Below are positions 12,102 to 52,733 of a stretch of DNA of 64,000 bases, piece after piece. Source of the stretch: Candidatus Methylacidiphilum fumarolicum. GTDB taxonomy: Bacteria > Verrucomicrobiota > Verrucomicrobiia > Methylacidiphilales > Methylacidiphilaceae. The stretch covers positions 62,001 to 126,000 of the forward strand of contig NZ_OX458932.1 in assembly GCF_949774925.1 (NCBI RefSeq). The letters are read 5' to 3'. Each line of letters begins with the position of its first letter. Position 1 is the stretch's first letter. The position numbers were made by a program, and so were the translations under genes. Below the pieces are notes generated by a model that was not told where the DNA came from, ran no database searches, and saw only the letters and a list, made by a program, of their open reading frames with translations.

Positions 12102-12198
12102 AAAAAGAAGAATTAACTGACTATACCAAAAAAGATAATCATAGAGGAATAGCAGTTGATAAATAGGCTTTTTTTAGTTATAAGTATTAAGTGATCCA

Positions 12199-12290
12199 TG
12201 GGGAGCCTAATGGCTGAGAGGTTCTTCTCTAATGATTGAGGAGAACGACCCTATGAACCTGATCCGGATAATGCCGGCGGAGGGAAAGGA
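12199..12290 (+). promoter_or_regulatory. TPP riboswitch (THI element)
   Basis: Shows the conserved THI-box parts in order: GGGGAGCC, GGCTGAGAGG, a variable hairpin, GACCCTATGAACCTGATCC, GGATAATGCCGGCG, and AGGGAA. It ends about 60 bases before thiC and should reduce expression when thiamine pyrophosphate is plentiful. The sequence between the aptamer and thiC includes AGGAGG near 12340, so translational control is plausible. Confidence 0.96.
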
Positions 12291-12336
12291 TATGCACTGT
12301 TCTTATGCTCTTATCTCCTGTTCGGCTGTCCTCTGA

Positions 12337-42346: not shown

Positions 42347-42414
42347 AGAATATTTGTAAAGAATAATTACTTAGTTTGAGAAAATAGTTGTTGTACAGTA
42401 AGACATTCTTGGTC

Positions 42415-43830
42415 ATGGGCAAAAGAAAAGGCTTGCAGAATTTCTTATTTTTCTTTGGCATCCTTCCTTTCTTTTTTTGGTTTTTTCTCCGCACTATTCA
42501 AGCAGAAGAAAAAAAGGGAGACATTCTTTATTATACTTGCACGATGCACCCCAGCGTCAAATCAAAAACTCCTGGAAAATGCCCTATTTGTTCGATGGAC
42601 CTAGTGCCCGTTTATGCTTCCAGTTTTGAAACAAAAGCTGAGCAAAAGATTCCAAAAGAAACCCCGGAAGCCTCTCCCTTTTTTATTCCTCCAGAAAGGC
42701 TTCAGGCTATTGGAGTAAGGACCGAGGAGGTACAAGTCCGAAAGTTAAAACTTGAAATTAAGGCACCAGCCATTGTTTCAATCAACGAGTCAAAAATTTA
42801 CGATATTAATGTCAAGGCGGGCAATGGGTATATTATCAAATTATATGCCAACTATGTAGGCAAGCATTTTTCCAAGGGGGAAACACTGGCAACTATATTA
42901 AGCCAGGATTGGGTTCAGGCGCAGATGGATTATATAAAGGCTTATAGAGCATGGCGGAGGAGCCTTTTAGTAAAAAAAGATAATCCGATACTGCTCGATC
43001 AACAATTTTATCACATTCGTGCTAGACTGCGTGTTTGGGATCTTAATGAGGATCAAATAAGGGAGCTTGAAAAATATGCTTGGTCGATGTCTGTCAACGA
43101 TGTGCGAACAGCAAAGGGTATTCGTGGAACGTTTGAGCTCCGTTCTCCCATAGAGGGGCATATCCATGAAAAAAATGTTTATGAAGGGATGTATTTTACA
43201 GCCGGCCAGTCCTTACTCAAGATCGTTGGTCTACAAGATGTGTGGATTTTGGCTGAACTACCAGAAGATCAGGCTCGATATATTGCAATTGGTCTTCCTT
43301 GTCAGATAAGCTTCCCTGCTTTGCCAGAAAAAACATTCGAAGCCAAAATCGATTTTATCCAACCCCATTTTGCTGAAGAGACTCGCCGATTGCAGGTGAG
43401 GGTTGTTCTGCCTAACCCACATCACATTCTGCATCCAGGGATGTACGCTGATTTTAAAACAACAATAGATTTTGGCACTAGGCTTGCTGTAGCTGAAGAT
43501 GCGGTGATCCCCACAGGAGAACGCTACGTAGTTTTTCTCGACCATGGGGGAGGCCACTTGGAGCCAAAATTTGTGGAAATTGGAGATAAAATAGAAGGCT
43601 ATTATATTGTCCGAGGGGGGGTAAAAGAGGGGGATCGAGTGGTCAGTGGAGCCAATTTTTTGATCGATGCAGAAGCCAGGGTTCAGGGAGCCTTAAAAAT
43701 ATGGAGTAGCGATCATTATCCCATGAAAGAGAAAAAAGATTCAGGAGAGAAGCAAGAACCTCAACAGATGCCTCCTTCCCATATGCATGGAATACCTCAT
43801 TCCCATATGCATGGGATGCCAGGCATGTAA
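42415..43830 (+). CDS. cusB: RND efflux periplasmic adaptor (CusB/CzcB type)
   Basis: A 471-residue membrane-fusion protein for heavy-metal export. After a signal segment it carries a heavy-metal-binding domain: Tyr-Thr-Cys-Thr-Met-His-Pro (40-46) and Lys-Cys-Pro-Ile-Cys-Ser-Met-Asp-Leu (55-63). The adaptor body follows with lipoyl-like and beta-barrel domains and an alpha-hairpin near 170-235. The tail is rich in His and Met (repeats of Met-His-Gly), suitable for Cu or Ag. The ATG at 42415 is preferred to an upstream TTG at 42388. cusA starts 6 bases later; no outer-membrane CusC gene is adjacent. Confidence 0.9.
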   Translation: MGKRKGLQNFLFFFGILPFFFWFFLRTIQAEEKKGDILYYTCTMHPSVKSKTPGKCPICSMDLVPVYASSFETKAEQKIPKETPEASPFFIPPERLQAIGVRTEEVQVRKLKLEIKAPAIVSINESKIYDINVKAGNGYIIKLYANYVGKHFSKGETLATILSQDWVQAQMDYIKAYRAWRRSLLVKKDNPILLDQQFYHIRARLRVWDLNEDQIRELEKYAWSMSVNDVRTAKGIRGTFELRSPIEGHIHEKNVYEGMYFTAGQSLLKIVGLQDVWILAELPEDQARYIAIGLPCQISFPALPEKTFEAKIDFIQPHFAEETRRLQVRVVLPNPHHILHPGMYADFKTTIDFGTRLAVAEDAVIPTGERYVVFLDHGGGHLEPKFVEIGDKIEGYYIVRGGVKEGDRVVSGANFLIDAEARVQGALKIWSSDHYPMKEKKDSGEKQEPQQMPPSHMHGIPHSHMHGMPGM

Positions 43831-43836
43831 ATATCA

Positions 43837-46800
43837 ATGATCAGCCGGATTATTCATTGGAGTGGAGAAAATCCATTTGTGGTTCTCCTCTTTGTTTTCT
43901 TTAGCCTTTGTCTGGGTCTTTATTCTGTTGCGCACGTGCCTCTTGATGCCATACCTGATCTTTCCGACGTTCAAGTGATTGTTTATACCGAATGGCCTGG
44001 GAGAAGCCCTACTCTTGTTGAAGATCAGATAACCTATCCGATTTCAACTCGTTTTATTTCTGCTCCGAAAGTCAAATTCGTAAGGGGAGAGTCGATGTTT
44101 GGGAAGTCTTTTGTCTATGTAATTTTCGAAGATGGAACAGATCTTTACTGGGCAAGATCGCGAGTTCTTGAATATCTGAACTCGGTTCGATCATCTCTTC
44201 CCGCTAATGTCAATCCGACATTAGGTCCCGATGCGACGGGAGTGGGCTGGGTTTATGAGTATGTTCTCCTAGATACATCGGGCAAGCATACGCTCTCTGA
44301 GCTCCGTTCTTTTCAGGATTGGACATTACGGTATGCTCTCTCTTCTGTTCATGGAGTTTCGGAAATAGCCAGTTTTGGTGGGTATGTTAGACAATATCAA
44401 GTAAATATCGATCCTAACAAGCTTTTGGCCTATGGGATCCGTTTTGATGAGGTTGTTCAGGCAATACAGAAGAGTAATCAAGATGTGGGAGGGAAAAGCC
44501 TAGAGGTTTCTACAGTCGAATTTTATATACGAGGCAAGGGGTATTTCAGGAATTTAGAAGATATCAGCCAGGTGGTCGTTAAAAGGGATAGGCAGGGTTT
44601 TCCTGTTGTGGTGAATCAGTTGGGAGACTTGACGATTGGAGGAGATATTCGTTTTGGAGTCACTGATTATAACGGCATTGGAGAAGCTGTCGGAGGCATA
44701 GTCATCATGCGATATGGTGAGAATGCACTCCAAGTGATCAATGGAATAAAGAAAAAAATTAAGAGTCTAGAACCTTCTTTCCCCCAAGGGGTCAAATTGG
44801 TGCCTGTGTATGATCGATCCGAACTAATTTACAAATCGATTGAAACATTGAAAAAAAAGCTTTTTGAAGAATGCCTTATCGTCAGTGCCGTCTGTGTTGT
44901 TTTTCTATGGCATTTGCGTAGCTCATTAATTCCTATTTTTATGTTGCCAGCAGCTGTTATCTTGTCTTTTATCCCTTTTTCTAGTTTCCATCTGACAGCT
45001 AATATCATGTCTTTGGGTGGCATAGCCATTGCCATAGGAGCCATGATTGATGCAGCCATCATCATGGTGGAGAATGCGCATCGTTCGCTTGAAGAATATA
45101 GGATATTGACCGGCAATGATCCCAAGGGGAACATCCGAAAAGAGTTGCTACTGAAAGCCTCGCAAAATGTAGGCAGACCCCTTTTTTTCTCTCTTCTTGT
45201 TATTACCGTTTCCTTTCTGCCAATCTTTGCTTTGGAGGCTCAAGAAGGCAGATTATTTAAGCCACTTGCTTTTACAAAAACTTTCTCCATGTTTTTTGCT
45301 TCCCTCCTCTCTATCACACTTGTTCCAGCTCTCATGAACTACTTTATCCGAGGGAAAATCATTCCTGAACAAAAAAATCCTATCAACCGGTTCCTTTTTT
45401 TTCTCTATAAGCCTGTTCTTGAACAAGCTCTTAAACATAGAGTTATTGTTTTGGTTCTTGCTCTGCTAATACTTCTCTCTACTTATTATCCATTATCCAG
45501 ACTGGGCGCGGAGTTCATGCCTCCTTTAAACGAAGGAACAATCCTTTATATGCCGACAGCCGTTCCTGGAATAAGTATTTCTGAAGCGGAGAGGTTTCTC
45601 AATCTTCAGGATCGTTATCTAATGACATTTCCAGAAGTGGAATCGGTTTTTGGCAAATCAGGACAGGCAGATACTGCCACCGATCCGGCTCCTCTTTCGA
45701 TGACTGAAACGATCATCAATTTAAAACCTAAAGATCAATGGAGAAAAGGAATGAATTGGGATAAGTTGATTGCTGAAATGAATCAGAAACTCCATTTCCC
45801 TGGGGTGGCGAATGTGTTCTGGATGCCTATTCAAACACGAATTCAAATGCTGACCACAGGGTTTCGCTCCGTTTTGGGGATTAAAATCTTTGGTAAGGAT
45901 CTTGAGGAGTTGAATAGGCTTGGAGAAAAAATCGAAAAAGTCTTGCTAGAGATGCCTGAAACAAGGAGTGCCTATGCAGAAAGAATTGAGGGAGGAAATT
46001 ATATCGATATCATTGTGCGCCGAGATAAACTGGCCCGTTATGGACTGACTGTCGAAGACGTTAACCAAACAATAGAGGGAGCCATTGGAGGGAACACGGT
46101 GACTACCACCATCGAAGGGAGAGAACGATACCCTGTAAATGTTAGATACCATAGAGATTTTAGAAAAGACGTGGCTTCTCTTTCAAGGATTCTTGTTCCG
46201 CTGCCACCTCAAGCCTCGCTACAGAAACAAATGTCTGGTAATCCGACAATGGCTATTGCTTCCTCACAAATTCCCTTAAGTGAAGTGACAGACATTCGCT
46301 ATAGACAAGGTCCCCCACTTGTTAGAAGTGAAAATGCACAACTGGTGAATTTTGTTTTTGTTGATACGCCTGCGAAGGATTTAGTGGGATATATTAAAAA
46401 GGCCGGACAAAAAATTGGGACAACGATCTCCTTCCCACCCGGTTATTACATCGAATGGGCCGGTTCTTATGAATATTTTCTTCGAGCCAAAGCTAAATTT
46501 TCCCTGCTTATTCCGTTGACTTTGTTTATCATTTTTGTCTTGATCTATTTTAATACCCATTCTTTAAAGAAAACTCTTATAGTGCTTCTTGCTTTTCCTT
46601 TTTCTCTAGTGGGAGCGTTTTGGTTCCTTTATATCCTTAATTATAATTTGAGTGTAGCAGTTGCTGTTGGTTTGATTGCTCTAGCGGGAATCGATGCGGA
46701 AACCGGTGTGATTATGCTACTTTATCTTGATCATGCTTTCATGGAAGCAAAGAAAACGGGGAAAATGGGATCGATGGCCGATCTTTTAGATGCCGTTAAG

Positions 46801-47046
46801 GAAGGGGCAGCAGGAAGAATAAGGCCCAAAATAATGACTGTTTGTGCAATTCTTTTTGGCCTTCTACCTATTTTATGGAGTCAAGAAACAGGGGCGGATG
46901 TGATGAAACGGATCGCCGCTCCCATGGTTGGGGGAGTCATCACCTCTGCCTTATTGGAGTTGATCATTTATCCAGTTATCTTTATATACCTTGAAAAGCA
47001 TTCCATTAGCCAATCCCAAACGGTTGCTGAAAAGGCTCGCATTTAA
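43837..47046 (+). CDS. cusA: Heavy-metal RND exporter CusA
   Basis: A 1069-residue inner-membrane proton-driven transporter with 12 helices and two large periplasmic loops. It follows CusA closely: Asp-Gly-Thr-Asp-x-Tyr-Trp-Ala-Arg-Ser-Arg-Val-Leu-Glu-Tyr-Leu, Leu-Gly-Pro-Asp-Ala-Thr-Gly-Val-Gly-Trp, and the helix 4 motif with Asp in Gly-Ala-Met-Ile-Asp-Ala-Ala-Ile-Ile-Met-Val-Glu-Asn. The segment Gln-Thr-Arg-Ile-Gln-Met-Leu-Thr-Thr-Gly holds a Met where CusA has one of its metal-binding Met residues. Monovalent Cu/Ag export is most likely. With CusB it forms the pump; the outer-membrane channel must be elsewhere. Confidence 0.94.
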   Translation: MISRIIHWSGENPFVVLLFVFFSLCLGLYSVAHVPLDAIPDLSDVQVIVYTEWPGRSPTLVEDQITYPISTRFISAPKVKFVRGESMFGKSFVYVIFEDGTDLYWARSRVLEYLNSVRSSLPANVNPTLGPDATGVGWVYEYVLLDTSGKHTLSELRSFQDWTLRYALSSVHGVSEIASFGGYVRQYQVNIDPNKLLAYGIRFDEVVQAIQKSNQDVGGKSLEVSTVEFYIRGKGYFRNLEDISQVVVKRDRQGFPVVVNQLGDLTIGGDIRFGVTDYNGIGEAVGGIVIMRYGENALQVINGIKKKIKSLEPSFPQGVKLVPVYDRSELIYKSIETLKKKLFEECLIVSAVCVVFLWHLRSSLIPIFMLPAAVILSFIPFSSFHLTANIMSLGGIAIAIGAMIDAAIIMVENAHRSLEEYRILTGNDPKGNIRKELLLKASQNVGRPLFFSLLVITVSFLPIFALEAQEGRLFKPLAFTKTFSMFFASLLSITLVPALMNYFIRGKIIPEQKNPINRFLFFLYKPVLEQALKHRVIVLVLALLILLSTYYPLSRLGAEFMPPLNEGTILYMPTAVPGISISEAERFLNLQDRYLMTFPEVESVFGKSGQADTATDPAPLSMTETIINLKPKDQWRKGMNWDKLIAEMNQKLHFPGVANVFWMPIQTRIQMLTTGFRSVLGIKIFGKDLEELNRLGEKIEKVLLEMPETRSAYAERIEGGNYIDIIVRRDKLARYGLTVEDVNQTIEGAIGGNTVTTTIEGRERYPVNVRYHRDFRKDVASLSRILVPLPPQASLQKQMSGNPTMAIASSQIPLSEVTDIRYRQGPPLVRSENAQLVNFVFVDTPAKDLVGYIKKAGQKIGTTISFPPGYYIEWAGSYEYFLRAKAKFSLLIPLTLFIIFVLIYFNTHSLKKTLIVLLAFPFSLVGAFWFLYILNYNLSVAVAVGLIALAGIDAETGVIMLLYLDHAFMEAKKTGKMGSMADLLDAVKEGAAGRIRPKIMTVCAILFGLLPILWSQETGADVMKRIAAPMVGGVITSALLELIIYPVIFIYLEKHSISQSQTVAEKARI

Positions 47047-50350: not shown

Positions 50351-50567
50351 CCTCTTCTCTTCTCTATTTTTCCGTTAATCTTTTTTTGCTTGCTTCGGAA
50401 CCTTATTATTAATTATAGTAAAATCGTCTATTGATTCTGTATTAAATAATATGGGCTTTTGGGCAGGGATTTGGTGGAATACGATAGAAAAGACTTGATT
50501 TATTTTATAAAACTGTATTTTTCTTAAGAACATTTCTTCTATTTTTTTTACAATTATTTAATTGCTT

Positions 50568-51269
50568 ATGATTCAATTTTTTTTAAAAGGCGGACCAATC
50601 ATGTGGCCAATTCTGGCCCTATCCGTTATAACTCTTGCTGTCATATTCGAGAGATTGCTTTTTCTGATAGAAATAGCTCGTAATAGAAAACGAAAGCTAG
50701 TGACGAAATTCCTAGAACTTGTTGGGCAGGGAAGGTATGAAGAGGCGTTAACTATAGCTGAAAAAAGTAAAGATTATGTGCTCAAAGTCTTGCAAGAAGG
50801 GTTAAAGCATAAAGATGGTGCCTTAGAAGATGCTCTGCTTGATGCTGCAAGCGAGCAGCTGGAAAGATTTAATAAGGGACTCGTTGTTCTTGATACAGCA
50901 GTGACTCTAGGGCCGTTATTGGGGCTTTTAGGAACAGTTACTGGGATGATGCATGCTTTTAGTATTGTAGGCTCTGGAGAAATTGCGGGAAAACAAGCCG
51001 CTATTACGGGAGGTGTGGCAGAGTCTTTGATTGCTGTTAGCTTTGGTCTTGCCGTAGCCATTGTAGCTATCATTCCTTTAAATTTTTTCAGTGCTCGAAT
51101 GGATAGAGCTAGAAGAAGAATAGAAGAAGCTTCTACGCGTCTTGTTTTGCTTTTAAAAGGCCAGATAGAGGCAGAGGGGACAGCTAGCAGACATACCATT
51201 GGAAATCCTTCTTCTTTGGAAGGAATGTCCAATTCCAAAATTCAATCGAGTTCTTCGGTGTTGCCATAA
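50568..51269 (+). CDS. exbB: MotA/TolQ/ExbB proton-channel protein
   Basis: A 233-residue inner-membrane protein with three helices (about 8-28, 110-135 and 150-180). The Gly-Pro-Leu-Leu-Gly-Leu-Leu-Gly-Thr-Val-Thr-Gly-Met stretch and Gly-Gly-Val-Ala-Glu-Ser-Leu-Ile-Ala are ExbB/TolQ signatures. With ExbD it couples the proton gradient to outer-membrane work (TonB uptake or Tol integrity); no tonB or tolA is adjacent, so the process served is unclear. The ATG at 50568 is preferred to the TTG at 50562. exbD follows by 36 bases. Confidence 0.9.
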   Translation: MIQFFLKGGPIMWPILALSVITLAVIFERLLFLIEIARNRKRKLVTKFLELVGQGRYEEALTIAEKSKDYVLKVLQEGLKHKDGALEDALLDAASEQLERFNKGLVVLDTAVTLGPLLGLLGTVTGMMHAFSIVGSGEIAGKQAAITGGVAESLIAVSFGLAVAIVAIIPLNFFSARMDRARRRIEEASTRLVLLLKGQIEAEGTASRHTIGNPSSLEGMSNSKIQSSSSVLP

Positions 51270-51305: not shown

Positions 51306-51722
51306 ATGCAAATAGTATCTCCTAGAAGAAAAAGACCTAGACTAGAAATCATTCCTTTTATTGATGTGATGTTTTTTTTGCTAGCCACATTTATGATGGT
51401 TTCCTTAGCAATGATTAAAAATGAGGGTCAAACCGTCAATTTGCCATTTGCAAAAAGTTCATCTTCTATCGAAAGGAAAGAAAAAGAAACAACCATTACT
51501 ATCACTGATAAAGGAGACATTTATTTTAATAAAGATCAAGTTTCCATAGAAACTTTACCAGCAAAAATTATGGAATTAAAAACTCAAGACGCAGATCCAA
51601 GAGTTTTTCTAAATGGTGACTGCAAGGCAACATTTGAAAAAGTAACGGCTGTGTTAGATTTGATTAGAAAACAGGGCATAACCAAAATAGCCATTCAAAC
51701 GACAAAAGAAGCCAAAAAATAA
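51306..51722 (+). CDS. exbD: ExbD/TolR biopolymer transport protein
   Basis: A 138-residue protein with a short cytoplasmic start, one helix carrying the proton-binding Asp (Asp20 in Ile-Pro-Phe-Ile-Asp-Val-Met-Phe-Phe-Leu), and a periplasmic domain of about 95 residues. It partners the ExbB homologue encoded just upstream. The 360-base region after it, to 52082, has no gene I can support; it ends in the hairpins at 51962-52043. Confidence 0.92.
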   Translation: MQIVSPRRKRPRLEIIPFIDVMFFLLATFMMVSLAMIKNEGQTVNLPFAKSSSSIERKEKETTITITDKGDIYFNKDQVSIETLPAKIMELKTQDADPRVFLNGDCKATFEKVTAVLDLIRKQGITKIAIQTTKEAKK

Positions 51723-51946
51723 TAGGAAGAAGATTTTTTGGAAGCTTTGTATCTATTCCTTTGTAATCTGAAGCCTAAGGGAATCTCTCGAGACTCAGTC
51801 CAGTTTAGTACTGGTGGATAAAAGGATGAAACTACCGGCTGCCTATCATTAGGCGTAGATGCTAGAAGACGTCTGGACGTGCGCTTCAGAACAATATTTG
51901 AAAAGATAAGAGATCAGGATTGCATTCCCAATCCGTTCATTCCAGG

Positions 51947-52004
51947 TAAAAAAAGCCAAAAAACATTTAAGGATCGGATATAATTTTCCCGATCCTTAAA
52001 TGTT
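51947..52004 (-). terminator. Very strong terminator of the Cys-rich peptide gene
   Basis: A 16-base perfect inverted repeat (51962-51977 and 51989-52004) with an 11-base AT-rich loop. On the minus strand it is followed by TTTT, GGC and a run of seven T, a good intrinsic terminator for the leftward gene ending at 52083. Two smaller hairpins follow on the gene side: GCAACA/TGTTGC (52011-52026) and CCTCT/AGAGG (52032-52043). Confidence 0.7.
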
Positions 52005-52082
52005 GAAATGGCAACAAATATGTTGCTAGATCCTCTCTAGAGGCTTCCTTATTTCTGGATTGAAGGCCAGAGTGCTAGAATG

Positions 52083-52268
52083 CTATGAGCAGTCACAATC
52101 TTTTCCCTTGTGTACCGCACAATCCTCTTTCTTTGCACACTTATCTTCACAGCCACATTTGACTTTCTTTTTTGCAATTTCTATGGACTGTGATGCAAAC
52201 AAAGAAGAAGCAGAAATTAAAGAGAGGGAAACAAAAAGAATTGAACTTAATTTAAATAGGTTTTTCAT
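52083..52268 (-). CDS. Small secreted Cys-rich peptide
   Basis: A 61-residue protein I cannot place in a family. From the ATG at 52268, residues 1-25 are a clear signal peptide ending in Phe-Ala-Ser. The mature part of about 35 residues is very basic and acidic and has six Cys (38, 40, 44, 50, 58, 60) and one His (53), in Cys-x-Cys, Cys and Cys-Asp-Cys arrangements. This suggests a periplasmic metal-binding peptide, metallothionein-like in content, or a disulfide-rich peptide. A strong terminator follows, supporting a real transcription unit. A longer frame from 52340 adds 24 residues and would bury the signal peptide. An ORF on the opposite strand is a shadow. Confidence 0.65.
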   Translation of the reverse strand: MKNLFKLSSILFVSLSLISASSLFASQSIEIAKKKVKCGCEDKCAKKEDCAVHKGKDCDCS

Positions 52269-52367
52269 TCCGCAAATTAATAGAAGAAGAGCGACAAAAG
52301 TCAAGGTTTTTAGGAATAAAAAGCAAAGATCAGTGCTCATATAACTTTATTTCGATAAAATAGATAA

Positions 52368-52733
52368 ATGAATAGATTTGTTATCCAGGAGCATTATGCG
52401 CGCCGGCATCATTATGATTTGAGACTAGAAAAGGATGGAGTGCTGAAAAGCTGGGCAATTCCAAAAAGTTTACCATTGCCTGGTGAAAAAAGGCTAGCGA
52501 TTCAAGTAGAAGACCATCCACTGGATTATATTGGATTTGAAGGGATCATTCCTCAAGGAGAATATGGAGCCGGAACAGTAACTATATGGGATCAGGGAGA
52601 ATATGAGCCGGTAGAATGGGGAAAGGATAAAATTCTTTTTGTTCTTCACGGAAAAAGATTAAGAGGAAAATATGCACTGATCCATCTAAAAAAAACAACT
52701 TCTAGCCATTGGTTATTTATGAAAATAGAGTAA
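52368..52733 (+). CDS. Stand-alone LigD-type 3'-phosphoesterase
   Basis: A 121-residue protein corresponding to the phosphoesterase (PE) domain of the bacterial NHEJ ligase LigD. The active-site residues known from the Pseudomonas enzyme line up with near-identical spacing: His9, His15, Asp17 and His50. The repeats of Gly-Ile-Ile-Pro-x-Gly-x-Tyr-Gly-Ala-Gly-Thr-Val are also typical. It should trim 3' phosphates or ribonucleotides from DNA ends. No ligase, polymerase or ku gene is adjacent. Confidence 0.9.
   Translation: MNRFVIQEHYARRHHYDLRLEKDGVLKSWAIPKSLPLPGEKRLAIQVEDHPLDYIGFEGIIPQGEYGAGTVTIWDQGEYEPVEWGKDKILFVLHGKRLRGKYALIHLKKTTSSHWLFMKIE

Follow-up and report, generated by a model that had tools for sequence, protein, structure and literature searches.

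The window analysed here, a stretch of 64,000 nucleotides covering bases 62001-126000 of a one-contig Methylacidiphilum genome of 2,476,671 bases, contains a small gene that is real, conserved and stand-alone. Judged from its sequence, the product is predicted to be an exported, metallothionein-like peptide, and we put at about even the chance that it binds a soft metal, with Cu(I) as the likeliest, and so buffers or shuttles periplasmic copper. In the sections of the literature drawn on here, the handling of copper for pMMO in acid by verrucomicrobial methanotrophs is an unsettled matter, for which the peptide is a small and easily tested candidate. If the proposal is true, it would extend metallothionein-like chemistry to the acidic periplasm.

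Table 1 Features of the peptide gene, its surroundings and related loci (window positions unless a locus or genome coordinate is given)
Feature	Position	Strand	Basis
61-aa gene, ATG to stop	52083..52268	-	ORF and orthologues in 11 family genomes, own included
Predicted Sec signal peptide, residues 1-25	52194..52268	-	cleavage site inferred from sequence
Mature part, 36 residues, CxCx3Cx5Cx2Hx4CxC	52086..52193	-	translation and alignment
Intrinsic terminator hairpin, 16-bp stem, 11-nt loop, T-rich tail to about 51947	51962..52004	-	fold and arm comparison
Possible promoter TTGACT-17-ATTAAT, 7 nt before ATG	52276..52304	-	comparison of five Methylacidiphilum genomes
ExbD-family protein, convergent neighbour	51306..51722	+	kept in 5/5 Methylacidiphilum genomes
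ExbB/TolQ/MotA-family protein	50562..51269	+	kept with ExbD in 5/5 Methylacidiphilum genomes
LigD_N 3'-phosphoesterase domain protein, divergent neighbour	52368..52733	+	4/5 Methylacidiphilum genomes
CusB-like adaptor	42388-43830	+	read from translation
CusA/CzcA pump	43837-47046	+	family search
Five-Cys paralogue, own genome	L002:1477-1659; G000:C1 near 2259264-2259446	-	direct comparison
Bufferin-type cluster	L028:7252-9304; G000:C1 about 1517251-1519303	-	NCBIfam and reading

The gene and its product

The initial annotation had the open reading frame right in coordinates, strand and length: 61 codons and a stop run from 52268 down to 52083 on the minus strand (G000:C1:114086-114268 in genome coordinates), encoding a product that begins with MKNLF and ends with CDCS. 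It had also described a clear signal peptide followed by about 35 residues with six cysteines and one histidine, which agrees with a mature part of 36 residues after Ala25, with a CxC at either end of the motif. Ala25 is invariant in all 11 aligned rows and Leu23 occurs in at least 90% of them, which suits cleavage by signal peptidase I; we infer that the signal peptide sends the chain to Sec and is cut off after Ala25. The remark that the peptide matches no recognised family stands as well, as no Pfam or NCBIfam model scores above its cut-off. An AlphaFold model (mean pLDDT 53.9, built on a two-row alignment) is uninformative; its low confidence fits an unfolded apo form and proves nothing.

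Conservation within one methanotroph family

Is the cysteine pattern kept in relatives, as the initial annotation required of its own reading? The orthologue search covered 60 genomes, 13 of the family (the source genome included) and 47 others of the order, many of which are incomplete drafts (63-99% complete). Orthologues at E <= 4e-6 turned up in 11 of the 13 family genomes but not among the 47, with chance-level matches (E 0.1-0.6) alone in six of the latter and in family genome G009. This genome and G012, the two family members in which no orthologue was found, are drafts of 230 and 340 contigs. As far as similarity searches reach, the peptide is confined in this survey of the order to one family of methanotrophs that thrive in heat and acid. 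All 11 mature parts, counted by eye, retain six cysteines and one histidine, so that the initial annotation's own test did not go against it. By alignment column, C44, C50, H53, C58 and C60 are invariant over the 11 rows, and C38 and C40 reach at least 90%, the most distant row being offset there by a single position. Conservation extends to residues other than cysteine in the last part of the peptide, where Ala51, Lys54 and Asp59 are invariant and Lys56 and Asp57 are kept in at least 90% of rows.

The mature part of G003 and G002 differs by 18.0 synonymous changes over 21.0 sites and 4.0 non-synonymous changes over 84.0. When the source genome is compared with the same two, synonymous change is saturated and dN is 0.205 and 0.253. 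Within the closest trio, omega lies at 0.10-0.25 for the mature part, 0.10-0.40 for residues 32-61 and 0.30-0.31 for the signal peptide, all from very few changes. By these comparisons the mature part is under purifying selection in the five Methylacidiphilum genomes.

A phylum-wide profile search of 387 genomes matched ten, namely six family members and four weak cases (E 2.6e-4 to 5.2e-3). The four were rejected as relatives: only L051 resembles a cysteine-rich peptide with a signal peptide, and its cysteine pattern is different. A pattern scan of genome contigs brought up L004 from Flavobacteriales among the matches listed, where the similarity is that of the signal peptide only, and 72,556 plasmid records held no match to the peptide. 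L051 itself (from G308, of the same class; marginal at E 2.6e-4 in the 387-genome search) is a predicted exported, cysteine-rich peptide with the motif KKPKKKVC, and small secreted cysteine peptides may be commoner in the phylum than annotated.

A second gene with five cysteines

Each of the five Methylacidiphilum genomes also has a second, divergent gene (L002 and L022-L025). Its product has the pattern CxCx3Cx5Cx6CxH, that is, five cysteines, with a histidine where the last cysteine of the six-cysteine peptide stands and without that peptide's conserved histidine. Compared directly, the two match at E 3e-4 to 0.06 across the five genomes, with 0.0016 for the source genome, and the strong scores of the paralogue came from a profile that already held paralogue sequences. 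As the direct similarity is weak and the strong scores are circular, common descent of the two peptides is likely, not proven. In the source genome the paralogue is convergent with a gene of 727 codons' product length, read as a YyaL-type thioredoxin-domain protein. A sequence from G011 (L026) has six cysteines and one histidine in the order of the six-cysteine peptide with other spacing, at a chance-level E of 0.57.

Terminator, putative promoter and transcription unit

The 16-base-stem terminator of the initial annotation proved exact. Its arms, 51962-51977 and 51989-52004, are 100% complementary and 11 nt apart, and the RNA fold of 51945-52020 (-) reaches -28.7 kcal/mol (z -7.3), an energy that none of 200 shuffles attained. 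Because its T-rich tail lies on the minus strand, the hairpin serves the peptide gene. A simple terminator scan did not return it; the loop limit of that scan is 8 nt, compared with the 11-nt loop here.

A script with our own criteria, which looked up to 300 nt beyond the stop for a hairpin followed by a T-rich tail, found one in 8 of the 11 orthologous genes. Base-by-base shuffles reached the hairpin energy in 0 of 50 cases for seven of these genes and in 2 of 50 for L003, and no such hairpin lies within 300 nt of the stop in L035, L036 and L038. Five unrelated hairpin sequences are found among the eight genes: one in the window, L003 and L030 (imperfect at the base in L030), one in L033 and L034, and one each in L031, L032 and L037. 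The terminator thus looks kept while its sequence is not. By the same script, none of the five paralogue genes has a terminator hairpin of this kind. Possession of its own terminator by most orthologues fits a separate transcription unit. From the hairpin in the window, heavy as well as separate transcription had been argued; the separate unit is supported, and the support stops short of heavy transcription.

As regards the start of the transcript, TTGACT occurs in each of the five Methylacidiphilum genomes aligned, and ATTAAT, or a near match to it, is limited to the closest three; the 29-base string as a whole is single-copy in the genome. A promoter scan returned four sites, compared with a mean of 6.5 in shuffles, and the TTGACT-17-ATTAAT site was not among them. 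Since the second hexamer is limited to three genomes and the scan was negative, a near-leaderless message is put forward as a suggestion, with this site as the candidate.

Genomic neighbourhood

The initial annotation had argued for a metal scavenger from the CusBA pump nearby. CusA is real and ends 5.0 kb from the peptide gene; it lies within the stretch in three of five Methylacidiphilum genomes (the window, L003 and L030). No CusA match was found near the gene in L031 and L032, and six loci from the two remaining genera gave none either. The argument from CusBA is therefore weak, because the linkage is unseen in two of five Methylacidiphilum genomes and in those six loci. LigD_N had no match beside the peptide gene in L032 (G002), and of the window genes that served as queries, none but the peptide matched in the six loci.

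In the second genus, L034 has a MOSC-like protein (read from translation) upstream in the same orientation and, downstream, an AAA-domain protein. L037 is flanked on one side by a redoxin and a NIR/SIR-family reductase and on the opposite side by a transposase; a NIR/SIR reductase is present in L034 too. As the surroundings differ between genera, no metal gene is a constant partner of the peptide gene. An operon with LigD_N, ExbBD or CusBA is rejected on the grounds of strand, terminator and synteny.

Between exbD and the terminator, 238 bases (51723-51960) are alignable in three close genomes, with no gene recognised in them. As a repeat or an RNA this segment was rejected, given that the genome has no second copy of it and only short chance-level matches elsewhere, and that Rfam gave no match. 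Farther away, a TPP riboswitch lies at window positions 12189-12303 (+).

A proposed metal-binding role and its alternatives

High cysteine density and conserved CxC, the marks of a metallothionein, are both found in the peptide (6 cysteines in 36 residues, in 11 of 11 rows); searches of Pfam, NCBIfam and PDB profiles gave no metallothionein model match. We propose that after Sec export and removal of the signal peptide behind Ala25, the 36-residue chain would stay largely unfolded until metal is bound. Its six thiolates, in two CxC pairs and two single cysteines, would then wrap a soft metal together with the one histidine. This metal would most likely be Cu(I), bound in a small Cu(I)-thiolate cluster; judging by known copper proteins, six thiolates have room for about four Cu(I) in such a cluster. 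The peptide might serve as a copper buffer in the acidic periplasm, or ferry the metal to periplasmic copper proteins or away from them; pMMO, on which these cells depend, is a copper enzyme. The pH of this compartment is probably about 2-4, where thiols hold zinc poorly, so that only very soft metals would fit. The sequence data as such pick copper no more than mercury, silver, zinc or cadmium. The absence of the family's conserved histidine from the paralogue means that the ligand set is not strictly kept, which counts against the proposal.

The pmoA gene (PF02461) was found in every one of the 13 family genomes but not in any of the 47 from elsewhere in the order. Its co-occurrence with the peptide amounts to one clade and is confounded by descent, and the drafts G009 and G012 have pmoA with no peptide found.

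Besides a metal scavenger, a peptide with disulphide bonds had been considered from the start. In this reading, the peptide would be a structural, signalling or antimicrobial mini-protein with three disulphides, working in an oxidising periplasm or outside the cell, for which the even number of cysteines and the predicted export speak. Similarities to disulphide-rich families point the same way: the plant defensin-like Pfam family PF25052 was hit at E 7e-4, though with 20.2 bits its curated cut-off of 25 was not reached and only 2 of the 11 members scanned matched, and CART, a disulphide-rich animal peptide, appeared in the PDB profile search (E 0.076) and, through Pfam, in 1 of 11 members (E 0.0093). 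The paralogue, however, has five cysteines in all five genomes, one of which would be left unpaired. Neither DsbB (PF02600; control matched 6 of 14) nor VKOR (PF07884; control 3 of 14) was found in the genome, and the genera share no conserved neighbour gene. Antimicrobial peptides tend to diverge rapidly, unlike the cysteine core here, which changes little. The odd cysteine count and the cysteine-to-histidine swap in the paralogue fit metal ligands better than disulphides. Of the two original suggestions, metal binding is thus the better supported, by the conserved cysteines and histidine, the paralogue and the failure to find DsbB or VKOR in the genome, and we now regard the disulphide peptide as rather unlikely.

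Could the peptide serve a single partner instead of storing metal? A dedicated periplasmic metallochaperone that delivers a single metal atom to pMMO, a terminal oxidase or an efflux pump, or collects it from there, would account for conservation at Ala51, Lys54, Lys56, Asp57 and Asp59 that exceeds the need of metal binding alone, and also for the restriction of the peptide, in this survey, to a pMMO-bearing family. The peptide's seven soft ligands, however, exceed the usual needs of a chaperone for one metal atom, and no fixed partner gene stands beside the peptide gene; we consider this role improbable.

Doubtful to a greater degree is a role as second, orphan substrate of a bufferin-type MNIO, in which the peptide would be a RiPP with cysteines converted to thiooxazole or similar copper ligands before export. 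Like a bufferin, the peptide combines a Sec signal peptide (recognised by eye) with a conserved cysteine core. The one MNIO gene of the genome (G000:C1:1518197-1518979) scores 339.8 bits, above the NCBIfam bufferin maturase cut-off of 310, and adjoins a cysteine-containing protein with a signal-peptide-like start. This cluster lies elsewhere in the genome and has its own, other precursor, which differs from the peptide in leader and core (by eye). Distance does not decide the matter, as bufferin precursor genes away from MNIO and several precursors per MNIO are reported in the part of PMC12452194 used here; the same part states that it is rare for precursor genes to occur where MNIO genes are lacking. 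MNIO was found in 11 of the 13 family genomes, alongside the peptide in nine of the 11 that carry it. G003 and G005, both 99% complete, have the peptide with no MNIO found, and G009 and G012 show the reverse. As the former two keep the peptide without it, the peptide seems not to need MNIO; it also matches no NCBIfam model. Where MNIO exists, modification of the peptide is possible. The bufferin-type cluster contains, for its part, a protein of 77 residues that starts like a signal peptide and contains SCKGKQSCKGK...CWC (no NCBIfam match) and, in the partner position, a 313-residue protein whose best model is HvfC, far below cut-off.

Relation to known copper peptides and proteins

Returning to the metallothionein-like reading, its closest parallels are the bacterial metallothioneins SmtA/BmtA and MymT, which are likewise very small and cysteine-rich. 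Their cysteine spacing probably differs from that of the peptide, and no Pfam or NCBIfam model links them to it. SmtA and MymT are described with cytosolic copper handling in the portion of PMC7558416 consulted, whereas the peptide carries a predicted signal peptide. MymT, according to the same portion, is a small Cu(I)-binding protein that had at first gone unannotated. The bufferins Buf1 and Buf2 share short length, richness in cysteine and a Sec signal peptide with the peptide; in the relevant part of PMC12452194, Buf2 has six conserved cysteines in 90% of cases. Bufferins also give copper protection.

Another cysteine-based form of Cu(I) storage, Csp, was first found in a methanotroph (PMC7558416, in part), and one from Neisseria gonorrhoeae is reported to be periplasmic (PMC12510493, in part). 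Csp1 and Csp3 are folded four-helix bundles that form tetramers and bind up to 13-20 Cu(I) per monomer, in contrast to a peptide of 36 residues. The peptide gave no DUF326 match in Pfam, and this domain was found in 0 of 13 family genomes by a weak test, whose control matched only 1 of 14.

Methanobactin is a small, cysteine-containing copper peptide of methanotrophs. The sole MNIO found here scores 48.4 bits against MbnB, compared with a cut-off of 325. Methanobactin precursors lack signal peptides in the account of PMC12452194, as far as it was drawn on, and the word "methanobactin" is absent from the main text of a review on verrucomicrobial methanotrophs (PMC8498564). For copper in these organisms, the part of PMC6688271 cited here names PmoC sites, PmoD and heavy-metal efflux pumps. 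Literature on Methylacidiphilum or verrucomicrobial copper, judged by titles and abstract openings, held no description of the peptide among the matches listed. It is conceivable, as a long shot, that the peptide and its five-cysteine paralogue together form an exported copper-thiolate system of the verrucomicrobial methanotrophs' own, which would feed or protect pMMO in the acid periplasm and take the place that methanobactin and Csp1 have in proteobacterial methanotrophs.

As for map distances, there is no proximity to pmoA in the source genome; in three genomes of the second genus (G006, G007 and G008) the peptide gene lies 17-25 kb from pmoA, and in two of Methylacidiphilum (G001 and G004) the paralogue lies 16 kb from it, both of which may be chance.
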